DNA of 64,000 nucleotides, taken from contig NZ_CP070491.1 in the NCBI RefSeq assembly GCF_016925495.1, forward strand, positions 3,794,001 to 3,858,000, read 5' to 3'. The notes under the pieces were generated by a model. That model was not told where the DNA came from. It did not search any database and was given only the letters and a program-made list of their open reading frames with translations. Position 1 is the stretch's first letter. Each line of letters begins with the position of its first letter. Position numbers and translations under genes: made by a program. The DNA comes from Methylococcus sp. EFPC2. GTDB lineage: Bacteria; Pseudomonadota; Gammaproteobacteria; Methylococcales; Methylococcaceae. Shown here piece after piece: positions 57,737-64,000 of the stretch.

Positions 57737-57818
57737 TTGAGGCAGTAGCCTGGATAAACTAGCGCCGGACATCAGGACAAGGAGCTATCGATGGAAGCGT
57801 ATTTCCGCTATTGGGGCA
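57737..57818 (+). repeat. direct repeat A, 5' region of a relic cas3
   Basis: It runs from TTGAGGCAGTAGCCTG through the ATG at 57791 into MEAYFRYWG. It matches repeat B at 58459-58538 with a few substitutions and one-base indels, including the noncoding upstream part. Confidence 0.75.
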
Positions 57819-58183
57819 AAGCAGGAAAGGCGGGTGATGAAGGAGAAGGGGCGCCGTATCACCTGCTGCCTTATCACAGCTTGGATGTCGCGGCGGTAGG
57901 CGCGGTACTGCTGGAGCGGCACACCTTCCTGCGTTCCACACTGAGCCATAGGCTTGGCTGGTCGGAAGAGGCCTTGGCAGCATGGATCACGACGCTGCTG
58001 TCATTTCACGATCTGGGCAAGTTCGCCGAAAGTTTCCAGCAATTGAAACCGGACTTTCGTAAGTCCTGGTGGGGAGAGAGCTCACTCCGGCATTACGACA
58101 TACGCCACGACACCCTCGGGTTTTTGGGCTGGCACGACGCTTATCACTGGCGCGCCAGGCGTCCTGCAACGAATGGGAAATCT
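57791..58183 (+). pseudogene. cas3: Cas3 HD-domain N-terminal fragment, type I-E-like
   Basis: The first 131 codons encode the N-terminus of a Cas3: MEAYFRYWGKAGKAG, HLLPYHSLDVAAVGAV and the HD motif SFHDLGKFAESFQ. It resembles the intact Cas3 downstream (FRYWGK, YHLLPYHSLDVAA) but is clearly a different sequence, so it derives from another I-E system. The helicase part is gone. The frame runs on without a stop into the brnA antitoxin, giving a possible 202-residue HD-BrnA fusion protein. Confidence 0.8.
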
Positions 58184-58194
58184 ATGAAACCTGA
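58150..58194 (+). pseudogene. brnT: 3' remnant of a BrnT-type toxin gene
   Basis: In a different frame from the Cas3 fragment, the last 14 codons read ARQASCNEWEIYET and stop at TGA 58192-58194. This matches the BrnT C-terminus pattern ARxAxxxExxxYE. The stop overlaps the brnA start by a few bases, as in normal brnTA pairs. The rest of the toxin is missing, replaced by the Cas3 fragment. Confidence 0.6.
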
Positions 58195-58399
58195 ATACGA
58201 TTTTTCCACGGTCGAACGTGGTGCGGTAGTCGAGCCCACAGGCAGAACCCGCATCAGCATTTATCTTGACGGCGACATCCTAGCCTCTTTCCGCGCCCGA
58301 GCCGACGCCGAAGGCAAGGGTTACCAGACCCTCATCAACGCAGCATTGCGCGCAGCCATCAACCCTCAGACAGCCCCGGTGACGGTAGAAACTTTGTGA
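58184..58399 (+). CDS. brnA: BrnA-type antitoxin (orphaned)
   Basis: The 71-residue protein has the BrnA form: MKPEYDFSTVERGAV at the start, then RISIYLDGDILASFRARADAEGKGYQTLINAALRAAI, a ribbon-helix-helix DNA-binding fold. BrnA neutralises the BrnT ribonuclease and represses its operon. Here the toxin gene is destroyed, so it can act only as a DNA-binding protein or against a toxin elsewhere. Confidence 0.8.
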   Translation: MKPEYDFSTVERGAVVEPTGRTRISIYLDGDILASFRARADAEGKGYQTLINAALRAAINPQTAPVTVETL

Positions 58400-58458
58400 A
58401 AGAATCTGTGAGAAAGGTCGAATGTTGCTTGAGCATAAGCTTCGTCACAGACCCTGCA

Positions 58459-58538
58459 TTGAGGCAGTGGCCTGTAAAACTAGCGCCCGGCAAAACGGAT
58501 CTGAGCTTTCGATGGAAGCGTATTTTCGTTATTGGGGT
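58459..58538 (+). repeat. direct repeat B, 5' region of a relic cas3
   Basis: TTGAGGCAGTGGCCTGTAAA through MEAYFRYWG repeats the upstream and start region of repeat A about 720 bp away. Confidence 0.75.
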
Positions 58539-58586
58539 ACGGCTGGAGATATGTGCGTTTATACCCATGCTGTCTCACTCGCATAA
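58512..58586 (+). pseudogene. cas3: second Cas3 start fragment
   Basis: MEAYFRYWGTAGD is followed by unrelated codons and a stop after 24 residues. The first nine residues are identical to those of the fragment at 57791. It is a broken second copy of the relic cas3 start. Confidence 0.7.
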
Positions 58587-58751
58587 GTCATCTTGGTCGC
58601 TGGATGAGAGTGGATCGGTGGGCGGCGCTTGATATACGGTGTAGGTGGTTATCCGGCCTTTCTGGATATCGATAATTGAGGCTTCCAGTTCGGCATTCAA
58701 ATCCCGTTTTGCTTCCCAGCGCTCAAGGTTTTGATCATTCAATTTACTCAT
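58575..58751 (-). CDS. small acidic protein, possible antitoxin-like
   Basis: The 58-residue product starts MSKLNDQNLERWEAKRDLNAELEASI and ends with an acidic tail SSSDQDDLCE. GGAG lies 7 nt before the ATG at 58751. The segment ERWEAKRDLNAELxxSIxDIxKG resembles the front of helix-turn-helix antitoxins next to RelE-type toxins, but the DNA-binding half is absent, so it may be truncated. It faces the cas genes in the opposite direction. Confidence 0.5.
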   Translation of the reverse strand: MSKLNDQNLERWEAKRDLNAELEASIIDIQKGRITTYTVYQAPPTDPLSSSDQDDLCE

Positions 58752-58879
58752 AAATGGCTCCATAACGGATTTCTATAGGCGCGTCTTTCCCGATACACCA
58801 TATCCGGCAATGAATTGGGTGGTATGGGAATTCAAGGCGATTAGCTTGTGAAAACGAGGGACACGGTGAAGGATTTCCA

Positions 58880-61549
58880 ATGTCAAATCAACTAGCTTTT
58901 TTCAGGTATTGGGGTAAAAGCAGCCGAGATTTTCCTCCTCGTCGAGAACAATATCCGGGTTGGCATCTATTGCCTTATCACAGTCTGGATGTAGCGGCAG
59001 TGGCATATGTCTGGTGGGATTCGAGTCGTTCCATCCGCCGGGCCTTTCCCGCCGTTCTGGACGTAGACCGCGATGATGAGCAAGCCATGACGGAACTCAA
59101 GGCTTGGTTGTTGTTCTTCGTCGCGTTGCACGATCTGGGCAAGTTCGATGTGCGGTTCCAATCCAAAGCTCCGGGGGTTACGGGAGTACTTTGGCCCGAG
59201 CTAGGACAGAAGCTCCGTGGTATTCCGCCCGATGACCGTAGGCACTATGACCATGGTATCGGGGGGTATTGCTGGTTTTCATCGGAAGCCGATTCCCTCC
59301 TCGGAATCGAGGATGAAGATAACTACTACGGGGCTATGGATTACTGGGCACCATGGTTGGCATCGGTAGCCGGACATCACGGGGAAATCATTTCGCCAAA
59401 CGCAGATTCGGATGGTATCCGAAATTTTGCAGGATTGGAGGCGCTGGACATCGAAGCGCGGAAAGCATGGTTCGCTGAGCTTGAAGCCCTATTCCTTGTG
59501 CCAGTCGGTCTGTCTTTGCGGGACAGGCCGCCGCAAATAACAAACGACAACCGCGCCGCGCAAAACCTAATCGCCGGTTTCTGCTCAGTGGCCGACTGGG
59601 TGGGTTCAAACACCCGGTATTTTTCTTACTGTGCCGAAATTCTCGAACCCGCCGCCTATCTCTCTCAGCGGATCGCGGATATAACTGACAAACGGGTGCT
59701 GCATTCTTGCGGCCTGCAGGGGCAAGTCCTGGATTATTCCGGGATCACCGCGCTACTCCCGGAGGGTGAAAAGCCACGGGGCGTGCAAACCATGGTGGAT
59801 GCCTTGCCTGTGGAGTCGGGTTTGCTCTTGGTGGAAGCCCCCACCGGCTCTGGTAAGACGGAAGCGGCGTTAGGTTACGCTTGGCGCTTGCTTGAAGCGG
59901 GATTGGCCGATTCCATTGTGTTTGCCCTGCCTACCCAAGCCACAGCCAACGCCATGCTCAAGAGGCTGGAAGATTTCGCCAAATTGGCCTTCCGGGAAGG
60001 TACGAATATCGTCTTGGCTCACGGGAAGTCGCAACTCAATGATGACTTCAAACGGCTGACAGAAACCGGGCGTCGCCCGAGCATCCAAGGCGAAGAGGAA
60101 GCCGCCGCACAATGCACCGCTTGGCTGGCGCAAAGCCGCAAGCGCGCTTTCCTGGGACAAATCGGCGTTTGTACGGTGGACCAAGTCTTGCTTTCCGCAC
60201 TGCCGGTCCGTCATAAGTTTGTGCGGGGCTTTGGGATCAATCACGGCGTGCTCATCGTGGACGAAGTTCACGCCTATGACAGCTATATGACGGGTTTGCT
60301 GGAAGAAATCCTGGCCCGGCAAGCGCGAACTGGCGGTTCCGCACTATTGCTTTCTGCCACCCTGCCCGCGAATCAACGCAAGCGCTTGGTCGAGGCTTGG
60401 GGCGCCAAGAAAGTCGAGGATTCTAATGACTATCCGTTGTTGACCCATGCCATGGGCCGACGCCTCTGCACGCCAGAGCTCTCCTCTGAACATCACCCCG
60501 AGCCGCGCACGGTCGCGGTTGAATGCCTCGCCACCCCTAAAGCGGAACCGGACGAAGCGACGATGGCCCGAGTCATCGAAGCGGCTGAGAGCGGCGCACA
60601 GGTCGTCTTGATCGTCAATCTGGTGGACGTGGCGCAGAAAGCCGCGAAGGCATTGCGGGATAAAACGTCGGTTCCGGTGGACATCTTCCATGCTCGCTAT
60701 CGATTCGAGGACCGCAAAGCCAAGGAGAAAGCCGCTATTGGGCATTATGGCAAGGAGGCGGCGCGAGAAGCCGGGCGCATTTTGGTAGCGACGCAGGTGG
60801 TGGAGCAAAGCCTGGATCTCGATTTCGATTGGATGGTGACGCAAATCTGCCCGGTGGATTTGCTGTTCCAGCGGCTGGGTCGGCTGCACCGGCACAACCG
60901 ATCCAGGCCATCAGATTTCGAGTCGTCCCGTTGTACTGTGCTAGTCCCCGAGAGCGGCAAATACGGCTTGATCGAATGCATTTATGGCGATCCCCGGCTG
61001 TTGTGGCGCACCGAGCAATTGTTGAAGCGACCGGGCGGATTGATCGAGTTTCCAGGCGCTTACCGGCAATGGATCGAGGCGGTTTATGGGGAAGCTTGGT
61101 CGGATGATAAAGATGAACCGGAGGATGTTTTCGGCGGGCATTGTGGCTGGAAGCAGCGCCAGGAACAAAAGCGTAGTGATGCTGCCCGCTACGTGCGGAT
61201 GAACATCCGGGAATTCCGGGACGATCAAGACACCGTGGCCTCCCTGACCCGCGATGAGGAAATGGGTCATACAGTGCTGCCCTTGAGCGCGGACGGCAAG
61301 GCGTTCTTGGATGGGCGAAGGCTGAAGGACTTGGATGACATGGATAAGGCCGAGGCCATCAACTTGAACGGTATTCCCGCTCCGGCGAGTTGGAGGTTCT
61401 TGCAATCGCTGGAAACCAATGATGAAGGCTGCCGGGTGTTGCCGATGGAGCGTCAAGGCGGTGTTTGGCGCGGGGCGGCGGGAAGTACCGACTTAACTTA
61501 CTCGCAGGAATACGGCCTCGCGAAAGCAATTAAAGAGTCGGGCGGGTGA
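58880..61549 (+). CDS. cas3: CRISPR-associated helicase/nuclease Cas3, type I-E
   Basis: Cas3 is recruited by Cascade to degrade target DNA. The 889-residue protein has the HD nuclease (HSLDVAAVAYVWW; VALHDLGKFDVRFQ), Walker A EAPTGSGKTEAALGYA near residue 320, DEVH box IVDEVHAYDSYM, motif III LLSATLPANQ and motif VI LLFQRLGRLHRHN. GAAGGA precedes the ATG. All catalytic motifs are intact. It is followed by a 330-bp gap holding the mini-array and promoter. Confidence 0.95.
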   Translation: MSNQLAFFRYWGKSSRDFPPRREQYPGWHLLPYHSLDVAAVAYVWWDSSRSIRRAFPAVLDVDRDDEQAMTELKAWLLFFVALHDLGKFDVRFQSKAPGVTGVLWPELGQKLRGIPPDDRRHYDHGIGGYCWFSSEADSLLGIEDEDNYYGAMDYWAPWLASVAGHHGEIISPNADSDGIRNFAGLEALDIEARKAWFAELEALFLVPVGLSLRDRPPQITNDNRAAQNLIAGFCSVADWVGSNTRYFSYCAEILEPAAYLSQRIADITDKRVLHSCGLQGQVLDYSGITALLPEGEKPRGVQTMVDALPVESGLLLVEAPTGSGKTEAALGYAWRLLEAGLADSIVFALPTQATANAMLKRLEDFAKLAFREGTNIVLAHGKSQLNDDFKRLTETGRRPSIQGEEEAAAQCTAWLAQSRKRAFLGQIGVCTVDQVLLSALPVRHKFVRGFGINHGVLIVDEVHAYDSYMTGLLEEILARQARTGGSALLLSATLPANQRKRLVEAWGAKKVEDSNDYPLLTHAMGRRLCTPELSSEHHPEPRTVAVECLATPKAEPDEATMARVIEAAESGAQVVLIVNLVDVAQKAAKALRDKTSVPVDIFHARYRFEDRKAKEKAAIGHYGKEAAREAGRILVATQVVEQSLDLDFDWMVTQICPVDLLFQRLGRLHRHNRSRPSDFESSRCTVLVPESGKYGLIECIYGDPRLLWRTEQLLKRPGGLIEFPGAYRQWIEAVYGEAWSDDKDEPEDVFGGHCGWKQRQEQKRSDAARYVRMNIREFRDDQDTVASLTRDEEMGHTVLPLSADGKAFLDGRRLKDLDDMDKAEAINLNGIPAPASWRFLQSLETNDEGCRVLPMERQGGVWRGAAGSTDLTYSQEYGLAKAIKESGG

Positions 61550-61557
61550 GACCGCCC
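61540..61557. other. hairpin over the cas3 stop codon
   Basis: Arms GGGCGG (61540-61545) and CCGCCC (61552-61557) place the TGA stop inside the loop. The right arm runs into the degenerate CRISPR repeat. It may help end the cas3 transcript or the opposing guide RNA. Confidence 0.45.
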
Positions 61558-61642
61558 GGCTACCCCACAGGCGTGGGGAACTTTTCCACGTAAAAAATCG
61601 GATCAATCCGAATTACGGGTCATCCCCGAAGATGGGGAACGA
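61555..61642 (-). CRISPR. minimal repeat-spacer-repeat unit with degenerate I-E repeats, candidate CreR-type guide
   Basis: On the minus strand a repeat-like GTTCCCC...GGGGATGACCCG (61616-61640 core) is followed by a 32-nt spacer (61584-61615) and a second repeat-like AAGTTCCCCACG...GTGGGG (61555-61583). In type I-E repeats, 8 nt after the GGGG stem form the crRNA 5' handle; here that is ATGACCCG. The second repeat has an intact CCCCAC/GTGGGG stem but a diverged handle, so the unit would yield one guide. A -10-like TAAAAT (61649-61654, minus strand) would start RNA at the first repeat. Confidence 0.8.
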
Positions 61643-61659
61643 AAGTGAATTTTAACACT

Positions 61660-61721
61660 TAAGCTCGACAAAAAACGTTAAATCCAAATTACTTGATTTA
61701 AATATTTATGGAATTTACCAT
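61660..61721 (+). promoter_or_regulatory. Cascade operon promoter with an overlapping guide-target site
   Basis: TTGATT (61693-61698), 17 nt, TACCAT (61716-61721) form a promoter 30 nt before the small ORF. On the minus strand the protospacer (61660-61691) starts TAATTTGGATTTA directly after an AAG PAM (61692-61694) that overlaps the -35. It matches the mini-array guide at positions 1-5, 7-11, 13 and 15. Confidence 0.7.
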
Positions 61722-61751
61722 GCGCTCTGTGTCCACAAAGGAGGCGATGGG

Positions 61752-61880
61752 ATGTCTGAATTTGTTCGAGAAATTCGTGAACTAGTCGAGGCGCTAAACA
61801 AAACCACGCCGCTAGCTGTAGCTGCTTTGGCGCTTATGTTGGCGATTTCCGTGATGTGGATGACAGGAGGCCATAAATGA
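61752..61880 (+). CDS. 42-residue single-pass membrane peptide in the cas operon
   Basis: The frame has a perfect AAAGGAGG ribosome-binding site 7 nt before the ATG (61737-61744). The peptide has a charged N-terminal amphipathic stretch (MSEFVREIRELVEALNK), one hydrophobic helix of about 18 residues (PLAVAALALMLAISVMWM) and a short TGGHK tail. Its TGA overlaps the ATG of cse1 (ATGA), so translation of cse1 is coupled to it. I do not know any such conserved gene in type I-E operons. A membrane tether or small toxin are both possible. Confidence 0.75.
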   Translation: MSEFVREIRELVEALNKTTPLAVAALALMLAISVMWMTGGHK

Positions 61881-63406
61881 ATTTGATGAAACAACCATGG
61901 GTTCCGGTAAGGTTACGGGCAGGCGCAGCAAAAGGCCGTATGTTGACTTTGGAAGACTTGCTTTGCGGACGGGAAGAGTGGGAAATCGCCCTGCCCCGCG
62001 ACGACTTGGAAATGGCTTGCCTGCAATTGTTGATTTCCTTCGTCCAGGTGATGTTTCCGCCCGACGACGCGCCAGCCCTGCGCCAACGGGCCAAATCCCC
62101 GCTCTCGCCTGAAGAGTTCGCGGATGGTGCCGACAAGCTCAGCGATTGGTTCGACCTTGACCATCCCGAATGGCCATTCATGCAAACCCGTGGCGTCAAG
62201 GCCGACGAGGCTACCCCCATCCAAAAGCTGCTGATTGGTTTACCGGAAGGCAATAACCATGCGTTTTTTAACCAACCAGGGGAAATTCGCTATCTGGGTG
62301 CGCCCGCCACGGCTATTGCGCTGTTCCATCAAGCGGTGAACTGCCCCAGTTTCGGTGGCGGCTTCAAGGGAGGGTTGCGGGGTGGAGCACCGATTACCAC
62401 CTTGGTGTCGGGTACTCATTTGCGGGAAACAATTTGGCGGAACGTCCTCACCCGCGAATCCATCGCCGATCTGTTGCCGACCTACGACTTTGATCTTGCG
62501 CACGATCAGCCCACTTGGGTTCAGCCTATCAAAGCGGGCGAGACTTTCCCTACTTCGCGAATTGGCCTGTTACGCGGTTTGTTCTGGCAACCGGCTCATG
62601 TTGGCTTGGTTCGCTCCGATGACGATCAACCTTGCCAATTGCTTGGCGGTGAGCCCGGATCAGCTTATACCGGTTTCTTCAAAGAGAAATTCACCTATAC
62701 GGCCGAGGGCGCGCCTTGGTCCCATCCACATGGTGCCCTGCAAATTACTACAAAAAAGGGCAAGCGTGAGGAAAGGTTCCTGTCCTTTACGACTACCGCG
62801 CCCGCTTGGACTTTGCTGAGCGAATTCGTGGTTCCTCGCGGCAGCAAGCAAGACCCGGAGGGTAGCCGTCCGGCATCTGCAATCGCTCAGTTCGGCAAGA
62901 CTTGGCCGAGAAAATCATTGCCACTGCTAGTGGGGGGTTATCGCAGCAATCAAGCGTCTGTCATCGAACGCCGCCACGAACTGTTCAGCCTGGCGAGTGG
63001 CTGGGATCAAGCCGGGAACAACCTTAAACACTTGGTCGAACTGGCGCTTAAAAGCCGAGACGCCCTGCGGAAGAAGCTGTTCTATGTTGGCAAAGGCAAT
63101 AAGGACAAGGGTTTCAAAGGGTTGGGCGTGGGGTTGCAACAAACCGGTGAAACCCTATTTTTCCGCCGCACTGAGCGATTGATTCAAAATGCCTTGGCGG
63201 ATGTCGCTTTCGATGATGCACAATTCAATATCCACCGCAAGAACTTCGTGGCTGTGCTGGCCGACGTTTGCCAAGACATTTTCGGCGAATTGACCGGCCC
63301 TTACGCCGCCAAGCCGGAACTCGTTCCCATCATCGCCGTGGCCCGCGCCGGGCTGGGCGCCGATCTAGCCAGTCTTAAACAAGAGGTACAGGCCGATGGC
63401 AGATAA
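61877..63406 (+). CDS. cse1: Cascade large subunit Cse1 (CasA, Cas8e)
   Basis: Cse1 recognises the PAM and recruits Cas3. The 509-residue protein has the family start MNLMKQPWVPVRLRAGA, the block SDWFDLDHPEWPFMQTRGVK, FFNQPGEIRYLGAP and HPHGALQITTKKGKREERFL, and a C-terminal helical bundle. AGGAGG lies 6 nt before the ATG. It overlaps the small ORF by 4 bp and cse2 by 11 bp. Confidence 0.94.
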   Translation: MNLMKQPWVPVRLRAGAAKGRMLTLEDLLCGREEWEIALPRDDLEMACLQLLISFVQVMFPPDDAPALRQRAKSPLSPEEFADGADKLSDWFDLDHPEWPFMQTRGVKADEATPIQKLLIGLPEGNNHAFFNQPGEIRYLGAPATAIALFHQAVNCPSFGGGFKGGLRGGAPITTLVSGTHLRETIWRNVLTRESIADLLPTYDFDLAHDQPTWVQPIKAGETFPTSRIGLLRGLFWQPAHVGLVRSDDDQPCQLLGGEPGSAYTGFFKEKFTYTAEGAPWSHPHGALQITTKKGKREERFLSFTTTAPAWTLLSEFVVPRGSKQDPEGSRPASAIAQFGKTWPRKSLPLLVGGYRSNQASVIERRHELFSLASGWDQAGNNLKHLVELALKSRDALRKKLFYVGKGNKDKGFKGLGVGLQQTGETLFFRRTERLIQNALADVAFDDAQFNIHRKNFVAVLADVCQDIFGELTGPYAAKPELVPIIAVARAGLGADLASLKQEVQADGR

Positions 63407-63941
63407 AAAAAACCTGGAAACGGAATTTCTAGAAATCTGCGAGAAATTCCATGGGAAACGCGGACCTGATGGAACTTACAAGGGTGGCTTGGACAACGGA
63501 CTGAAAGCGCAGATTCGCCGAATCGCGGAACCAGACGACTTGCGGGATACGCCCGCGCTTTATCGACTGTTCAACCATACGCGACCCCACGATGGCTGGC
63601 TGAGGATCGTATTCCTTCTGCCTTGGTGTGAGGACTGTGGCGACGCCAAACGCGCTTCCACCCCCCGTTTCGGCAGGCAGTTGAAGGAAGCCAGTATCAG
63701 CGATCTGCGCTTGTTCCAAGTGGCCCGTTCGTGTTCTCCGCTCGATATCATCCAACTGCGCCGCTTGGCGATCATGCTCAAGCATCCTCGGGTGGATTGG
63801 GAAACCTTTGGCTGGCTGCTTTATCGCTCGGAGCAGGACGGTTCCTGGAGCCGAAATTCCAAGCGCCAACTCATTGAAGATTTTTTCATCGCTCAACCCA
63901 CCTCTTCTGGCCAAAAAAAGGACGCCGCTCATGAACTCTAA
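63396..63941 (+). CDS. cse2: Cascade small subunit Cse2 (CasB, Cas11)
   Basis: The 181-residue helical protein has Cse2 features: ALYRLFNHTRPHDGWLRIVFLLPW near residue 50, GRQLKEASISDLRLFQVARS and LRRLAIMLKHPRVDWETFGWLLY. Two copies line the Cascade backbone and stabilise the R-loop. It overlaps both neighbours by 11 bp. Confidence 0.93.
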   Translation: MADKKNLETEFLEICEKFHGKRGPDGTYKGGLDNGLKAQIRRIAEPDDLRDTPALYRLFNHTRPHDGWLRIVFLLPWCEDCGDAKRASTPRFGRQLKEASISDLRLFQVARSCSPLDIIQLRRLAIMLKHPRVDWETFGWLLYRSEQDGSWSRNSKRQLIEDFFIAQPTSSGQKKDAAHEL

Positions 63942-64000
63942 GAATTTCGTCAACTTCCATGTGCTGATTTCGCACAGCCCTTCTTGCCTCAACCGCGACG
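63931..64000 (+). CDS. cas7: Cascade backbone Cas7 (Cse4, CasC), N-terminal part only
   Basis: The visible MNSKNFVNFHVLISHSPSCL continues with NRD to the window edge. This is the Cas7e N-terminus, which forms the six-copy crRNA backbone. The gene runs off the right end; cas5, cas6 and cas1-cas2, and any main array, should follow. Confidence 0.9.
   Translation, partial: MNSKNFVNFHVLISHSPSCLNRD

Follow-up and report, generated by a model that had tools for sequence, protein, structure and literature searches.

Here we report that the gap between the cas3 and cas8e genes of the type I-E CRISPR-Cas locus of Methylococcus sp. EFPC2 holds a mini-CRISPR on the minus strand, the single guide of which matches an AAG-flanked target at the predicted promoter of the Cascade operon. 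Judging from these sequence features, we consider it probable (about 0.86) that this is CreR-type autorepression, in which the mini-CRISPR guide makes Cascade hold down its own operon. An earlier note on this DNA had proposed such an architecture, and its interpretation is supported by the match between guide and target, the absence of a second exact copy of the target from the genome, and a comparison of lineages, in which guide and target change together. The guide is a further member of the published type I-E CreR.

Liu et al. 2023 reportedly described CreR, RNAs that regulate cas genes in types I-B, I-E, and V-A. CreR of these three types is already published (PMC13131331, PMC12737573, and PMC12948488), and in the available text of these papers it shares with the present system a crRNA-like RNA partly complementary to a cas promoter, a Cas effector as the repressor (predicted here), and a response to crRNA load and anti-CRISPRs (likewise predicted). 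What sets the present system apart is that a conserved small membrane protein is encoded at the head of its presumably repressed operon.

Organization of the cas locus and the mini-CRISPR

The analysed window is the stretch of 64,000 nucleotides at positions 3794001-3858000 (forward) of a 4.44-Mb contig. The host is probably a methanotroph, because the genome's family also includes Methylocaldum sp. 14B, which is locus L025 of our set and has the same upstream region as L013. In the window, the type I-E cas3 gene (58880-61549, plus strand; NCBIfam NF007248, 1031.7 bits against a cut-off of 569) is separated by 327 bp from cas8e/cse1 (61877-63406, plus; NF007247, 594.7 bits against 576; also TIGR02547), with cse2 (63396-63941, plus; TIGR02548) behind it. 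The cas7, cas5, cas6e, cas1, and cas2 genes (TIGR01869, TIGR01868, TIGR01907, TIGR03638, and TIGR01873) lie 3' of cse2, wholly or mostly beyond the window, and the same genome thus holds a complete Cascade together with Cas3, Cas1, Cas2, and a long array. The broken start of a second cas3 was observed at 57791-58399, where residues 6-120 match Cas3e (PADLOC, E 4.4e-18) and are followed by an unrelated tail, which we take to resemble a BrnA-type antitoxin. Two further loci, L009 (10647-11015) and L010 (38-1043), carry other genes between cas6e and cas1, including one for a YgiT-type zinc finger; judged by eye, others are presumably VapC and Uma2 genes.

The mini-CRISPR was confirmed on the minus strand as it had first been read, with two degenerate type I-E repeats enclosing one guide between cas3 and cse1. 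Repeat 1, CGTTCCCCATCTTCGGGGATGACCCG, with the 5' handle ATGACCCG, occupies 61641-61616 and matches the pattern of the genome's array repeat; the guide, TAATTCGGATTGATCCGATTTTTTACGTGGAAA, follows at 61615-61583, and repeat 2, GTTCCCCACGCCTGTGGGGTAGCCG, at 61581-61557. The spacer length of 32 nt given earlier has to be corrected to 33 nt once the guide is registered to the main array, which has a 28-nt repeat and mostly a 61-nt period. The repeat pattern of that array gave 132 forward matches in the genome, which, among the matches listed, all read GTTCCCCACGCCCGTGGGGATGAACCG, and one reverse match; the handle of the array is ATGAACCG as against ATGACCCG in the mini-CRISPR. The window contains exactly one match of the array-repeat pattern, on the minus strand at 61640-61616, and this is repeat 1. 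The comparison of main-array and mini-CRISPR repeats, which the earlier note had suggested as a check, therefore shows that the two correspond, and the crRNA-like gene has the repeats of its cognate I-E system, as is characteristic of CreR. The repeat search and TRF did not detect the degenerate repeats of the mini-CRISPR, and an Rfam scan of 58400-64000 returned nothing at the gathering score.

Consensus scanning added two terminator-like hairpins on the minus strand, both omitted from the earlier note, as was an open reading frame for a 42-aa protein at 61752-61880. The first, GC-rich, ends the mini-CRISPR at 61558-61539 (two such hairpins in the region versus 0.8 expected). The second lies within the guide itself at 61611-61598 (TCGGA-TTGA-TCCGA, then T6). 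We considered that the latter might be an intrinsic terminator, which would shorten the RNA; downstream of it come repeat 2 and then the hairpin with the longer, all-GC stem.

Guide-target match and predicted promoters

The target protospacer lies on the minus strand at 61659-61691, with seed positions 1-11 at 61691-61681. It had been placed about 75 bp from the guide, on the same strand and directly after an AAG PAM, and we found it 76 nt away with AAG at 61694-61692. All ten seed positions (1-5 and 7-11) of the guide are matched there; the further matches read previously at positions 13, 15, and 19-22 proved correct as well, and those at 24 and 32-33 can be added. When 61642-61876 was dinucleotide-shuffled 20,000 times and both strands were considered, a ten-position seed match behind AAG occurred once, and 23 times when no PAM rule was applied. 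The genome (4.56 Mb) contains AAGTAATTNGGATT in exact form a single time, at the target, and one other site has it with one mismatch. The target thus combines a PAM with a partial, seed-centred match to a predicted cas promoter, a further mark of CreR.

The promoters around the target are both consensus matches. The predicted Cascade-operon promoter (61693-61721, plus) consists of the -35 box TTGATT at 61693-61698, a spacing of 17 nt, and the -10 box TACCAT at 61716-61721, whereas a stricter consensus scan of 61450-61950 listed no promoter. The contention that the target abuts and overlaps the -35 of the Cascade promoter agrees with this consensus match, in which CTT, the complement of the PAM, reaches into the predicted -35. 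The assignment of this promoter to the Cascade operon stands in that the Cascade genes follow it, with the amendment that the gene of the 42-aa membrane protein comes first. The best sigma-70-like site starts its -35 one base past the C of CTT in 21 of 34 loci, one of which is the window, as compared with a mean of 1.95 and a maximum of 5 of 34 in 20 rounds in which CTT was kept fixed and the rest was shuffled; on this comparison, the PAM seems to be built into the -35. On the minus strand, a putative promoter of the guide RNA with the extended -10 TGTTAAAAT is predicted at 61649-61657 and ends 7 nt before repeat 1, and a distance of 3-8 nt between the best -10-like hexamer and that repeat was found in 19 of 34 loci. 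These two predicted promoters are divergent and have the target of the window between them, so that Cascade bound there should interfere with both.

Proposed mechanism of autorepression

From this arrangement, we infer the following course of transcription, processing, binding, and repression. A minus-strand transcript of the mini-CRISPR (61557-61641) would be processed by Cas6e to a crRNA-like RNA, and the host Cascade, once loaded with it, would be directed by the seed (positions 1-5 and 7-11) to the AAG-flanked site at 61694-61659. The pairing at the target would be too limited for Cas3 to cut, and bound Cascade would cover both the -35 of the Cascade promoter and the upstream portion of the promoter that serves the guide RNA. 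The operon, encoding the 42-aa membrane protein, cas8e, cse2, cas7, cas5, and cas6e, would be kept low in proportion to free Cascade. Its expression would rise when ordinary crRNAs compete for Cascade or when an anti-CRISPR blocks it, and the release of repression would also yield the small membrane protein.

Joint change of guide and target in related genomes

A scan of genome contigs by means of a Cas8e alignment yielded 46 loci, and searches of the family (38 genomes) and the order (311 genomes) added more; 60 upstream stretches were fetched, and 108 cas8e-upstream regions, 97 of them distinct, were examined in all. Similar modules with other guides were found in 41 of the 108 regions (39 of the 97 distinct ones). 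The cas3 gene, or a long reading frame presumed to be cas3, ends at most 25 nt from cas8e in 51 of the 108 regions (42 of the 97), and creR was detected in none of these 51 as against 41 of the 57 others, or, with duplicates removed, in 0 of 42 versus 39 of 55. Among the 16 non-abutting regions in which creR was not detected, the sequence ends too early in L031 and L110, and an apparent transposase gene lies in L012.

Independent drift of guide and target in related genomes, which the earlier note had named as evidence that would speak against its reading, was looked for in two overlapping sets of loci free of target-based or PAM-based picking, and the CreR idea survived in 16 of 16 gaps and 25 of 26 mini-CRISPRs. 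The gaps came from 18 that were scanned for the handle, two of which (L030 and L066) failed the pattern. The best site in the 16 parsed gaps, whatever its PAM, matched all ten seed positions in 14 and nine in two, and was always preceded by AAG. When guides were swapped between loci, a complete seed match behind AAG appeared in 4 of 240 pairings, all of them within the near-identical pairs L022/L023 and L051/L052. The mini-CRISPRs were sought in the 108 regions and 35 stretches of a class sample as two repeat-like hairpins flanking a guide-sized stretch. This repeat-only search gave 26 distinct guides, 25 of which match an AAG-flanked site at 9 or 10 of the ten seed positions, and the remaining one (L148) has 8 such matches; among 130 shuffled guides, nine matches were reached by three and ten by none.

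The position profile of 37 distinct guides is conditioned, since most of its loci were chosen for a target in which no fewer than 8 or 9 seed positions match next to AAG or a PAM from a short list; in it, positions 1-5 are matched in 36-37 guides, 7-11 in 35-37, position 6 in 10, and position 12 in 7, and after position 13 (34 guides) the matching declines. The best site is on the opposite strand for three of the 37 guides, and in five loci by another count. For the mini-CRISPRs of five loci (L103, L111, L113, L117, and L119), the target was observed on the opposite strand at a distance of 67-73 nt; all five have AAG and are matched at positions 1-5, 7-11, and 13-15, and position 6 differs in two of them. 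The class sample was an even one of 369 genomes, of which 37 have Cas8e and 35 gave the fetched stretches. Automatic testing of these stretches detected three creR for which a target was scored, and a mini-CRISPR was recognized by eye in nine stretches (L134, L137, L138, L139, L142, L146, L148, L152, and L161), with the best site after AAA or AAT in L134 and L161. None of the nine contains a hydrophobic small open reading frame above the threshold used.

Guide and target are kept jointly while their sequences change, as would be expected of CreR. These data bear on the idea that the locus is a decayed mini-array with a self-matching spacer and no function, to which the degeneracy of both repeats and the merely partial match of the guide would be congenial. 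That idea is very improbable against the retention of the seed while guides differ between lineages and positions 6, 12, and the 3' half drift freely, and against the retention of the PAM and of the promoter geometry.

A family of small membrane proteins ahead of cas8e

The 42-aa protein with a single transmembrane segment is encoded at 61752-61880 on the plus strand, as the first gene past the predicted target promoter and between it and cas8e, with a good ribosome site (GGAGG at 61740-61744) and a stop codon that overlaps the cas8e start (ATGA). A profile built from 14 small membrane open reading frames found members (E<0.05) in 28 of the 108 upstream regions, 12 of which were neither in the profile nor copies of its members; L029 (E 0.017) and L106 (E 0.025) are weak. 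These regions fall among the 41 creR loci in 26 of the 28 cases; of the two others, L031 is cut by a contig end, and in L115 creR was not detected. Conversely, 15 of the 41 creR loci have no family member by the profile model, the frames in L030 and L032, which resemble the family by eye and not by model, being counted as lacking it. The 19 best places among the 311 genomes of the order (E≤0.0042, in 18 genomes; 11 of the places neither in the profile nor copies) all precede cas8e on the same strand by no more than approximately 630 bp, and 12 weaker places (E 0.01-0.05) were not matched to cas8e. The genome of the window was the only one in the class sample scoring below 0.001.

The family members are 35-46 aa long. 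Differences at the three codon positions number 6, 4, and 23 between L023 and L031 and 2, 2, and 9 between L105 and L114, which indicates that the small membrane frame is a translated gene; the counts for L070/L081 and L077/L081, shifted by one codon, were left out. AlphaFold2, run on the single sequence, gave helices at 3-18 and 20-39 (pLDDT 85), one amphipathic and one transmembrane. Five members had no match in Pfam or NCBIfam, three had none in PADLOC, and the PHROG matches of five had E values of 0.08 or worse. No mention of the family was found in the open-access listings and passages to which the search was confined.

Small toxin or antitoxin genes were observed before cas8e in ten loci (L090, L094, L097, L098, L101, L103, L104, L111, L113, and L121), in six of which creR was detected, the exceptions being L094, L097, L101, and L121. 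On scanning, HicA (as in L121) and a HicB-like gene (L104) scored above the Pfam cut-off and a ParE-like gene (L090) just under it; the others look alike. The notion that HicAB- or RelE-like genes replace the small membrane frame was rejected, as L098, L103, L104, L111, and L113 carry that frame further upstream.

The nearest experimental parallel found is in Citrobacter rodentium (C. rodentium), where, according to the available text of PMC12055562, a 96-bp open reading frame of the cas3-casA gap arrests growth on expression and needs translation to do so, casD deletion is harmful only when that region is present, and loss of Cascade is costly while loss of Cas3 is not, the silence of the toxin needing Cascade; its authors predict an opposite-strand guide and a PAM-flanked promoter target. 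The likeness to this I-E CreTA extends to the cas3-casA gap, the predicted opposite-strand guide upstream of a tiny frame with casA downstream, and the predicted PAM-flanked target at the promoter. In C. rodentium the PAM is ATG, the target lies in the UP element, and the 96-bp frame has shown toxicity, as compared with AAG, the predicted -35, and a candidate toxin of 42 codons plus a stop in the window.

Because the C. rodentium gap holds a translated toxin, the 42-aa protein is a fair toxin candidate, no more, by analogy. A CreTA-like addiction, in which the guide would mainly silence this protein as a translated toxin, and loss or block of Cascade would stop growth, with repair and punishment released together, is a tentative reading that we hold at somewhat under an even chance. 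Besides the C. rodentium layout, it would accommodate the conserved transmembrane family with its 19 best matches all at cas8e, the codon-position differences typical of a real gene, and the two predicted helices. However, the likeness to C. rodentium concerns layout; the predicted repression can do without the frame, as the 15 creR loci without a member by the model indicate; and each time Cascade is synthesized the toxin would be made along with it, hardly a tolerable state if the toxin were strong.

A comparably tentative chance attaches to the view that the protein is a harmless accessory of Cascade, an anchor or regulator made together with it, and that the RNA is a plain CreR. The overlap of stop and start codons with cas8e in the window and the strict link to cas8e would fit a co-working subunit, and there are relatives with CreR only (L034, L036, L051, and L052), in which the target lies 63-93 nt from cas8e. 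Yet the distribution is patchy on the Cas8e tree even among close relatives (present in L022 and L023, absent from L026), a pattern that resembles turnover of a module more than the retention of a subunit. On that tree of 45 rows, the three states of no module, creR, and creR with the membrane protein require 11 changes, indicating that the module comes and goes. Returning to CreR-type autorepression, by analogy the RNA is perhaps a CreTA-like switch as well, and the repression may serve to control dosage, to enforce addiction, or both.

Comparison with CreA, CrePA, and the E. coli gap

In archaeal type I-B CreA, mutation identified seed positions 1-5 and 7-11 as required and positions 6 and 12 as dispensable (PMC8501985, available text), and the positions that are free here are the same two. 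Haloarcula CreTA (I-B) shares the 1-5 and 7-11 seed (PMC8501985, PMC9458426), and in H. hubeiense two degenerate repeats likewise surround one guide. In Haloarcula as here, the PAM lies in a core promoter element, its complement falling in the BRE there and in the predicted -35 here; the toxin there is an RNA, unlike the candidate protein here. The CrePA systems resemble ours in that a crRNA-like guide represses a protein toxin gene (PMC12737573, available text), the toxin here being a candidate. They differ in that CreP typically has a KilA-N domain, whereas the 42-aa protein combines an amphipathic and a transmembrane helix and has no Pfam or NCBIfam match, KilA-N included, at E≤0.1.

We also observed a comparable arrangement in the cas3-casA gap of E. 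coli K-12 MG1655 (locus L168; NC_000913.3, 6140-6553, minus), in which a repeat-like sequence, CTTCCCTACTTAAGTAGGGATAAACCG, and the handle ATAAACCG precede a guide. This guide matches an AAG-flanked site 154 nt away at 14 of 15 positions (1-16 without 6), with the mismatch at 9, a level reached in 0 of 10,000 shuffles, and the CTT of the site runs into TTGCAG, a possible -35. At least 80% of the gap is present in 1106 of 5426 E. coli genomes, and strain RM9872-C1 differs, over guide positions 1-27, at position 12 alone. An anti-Pcas RNA of 150-200 nt, described in the available text of PMC7074321 as of unknown role, lies just downstream of cas3 in E. coli K-12, and on the sequence match this RNA may be a CreR.

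Guide folding

Thirty-four guides fold better than their shuffles, with a mean z of -1.18 as compared with -0.14 for 518 array spacers and -0.04 for the targets, a difference whose p-value of 7e-7 is too good because the loci are related. The seed often pairs with the middle or 3' half of the guide. The guide of the window is not exceptional against shuffles (z -0.3), but its whole 103-nt RNA is (z -3.2). Such folding could weaken the guide against crRNAs.

Implications

A broader proposition, which we regard as unlikely though worth stating, is that in many proteobacterial I-E systems unnamed membrane toxins of 35-46 aa head the Cascade operon, and that one crRNA-like RNA locks both toxin and Cascade, its guide folding back on its seed. 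If this were true, a single switch would combine autorepression, the sensing of anti-CRISPRs, with new Cascade made in response, and addiction or abortive infection through the toxin if Cascade stays blocked, and the self-folded guide would be outcompeted by ordinary crRNAs.

That guide and target change together is by itself an indication that self-repression by type I-E Cascade is widespread. It follows a design rule, in which the complement of the PAM lies within the -35 box, ten seed bases are kept, and positions 6 and 12 are free. The new family of small membrane proteins at the head of the operon provides a testable toxin candidate, and the guide and target of E. coli K-12 give a concrete hypothesis for the role of the anti-Pcas RNA.
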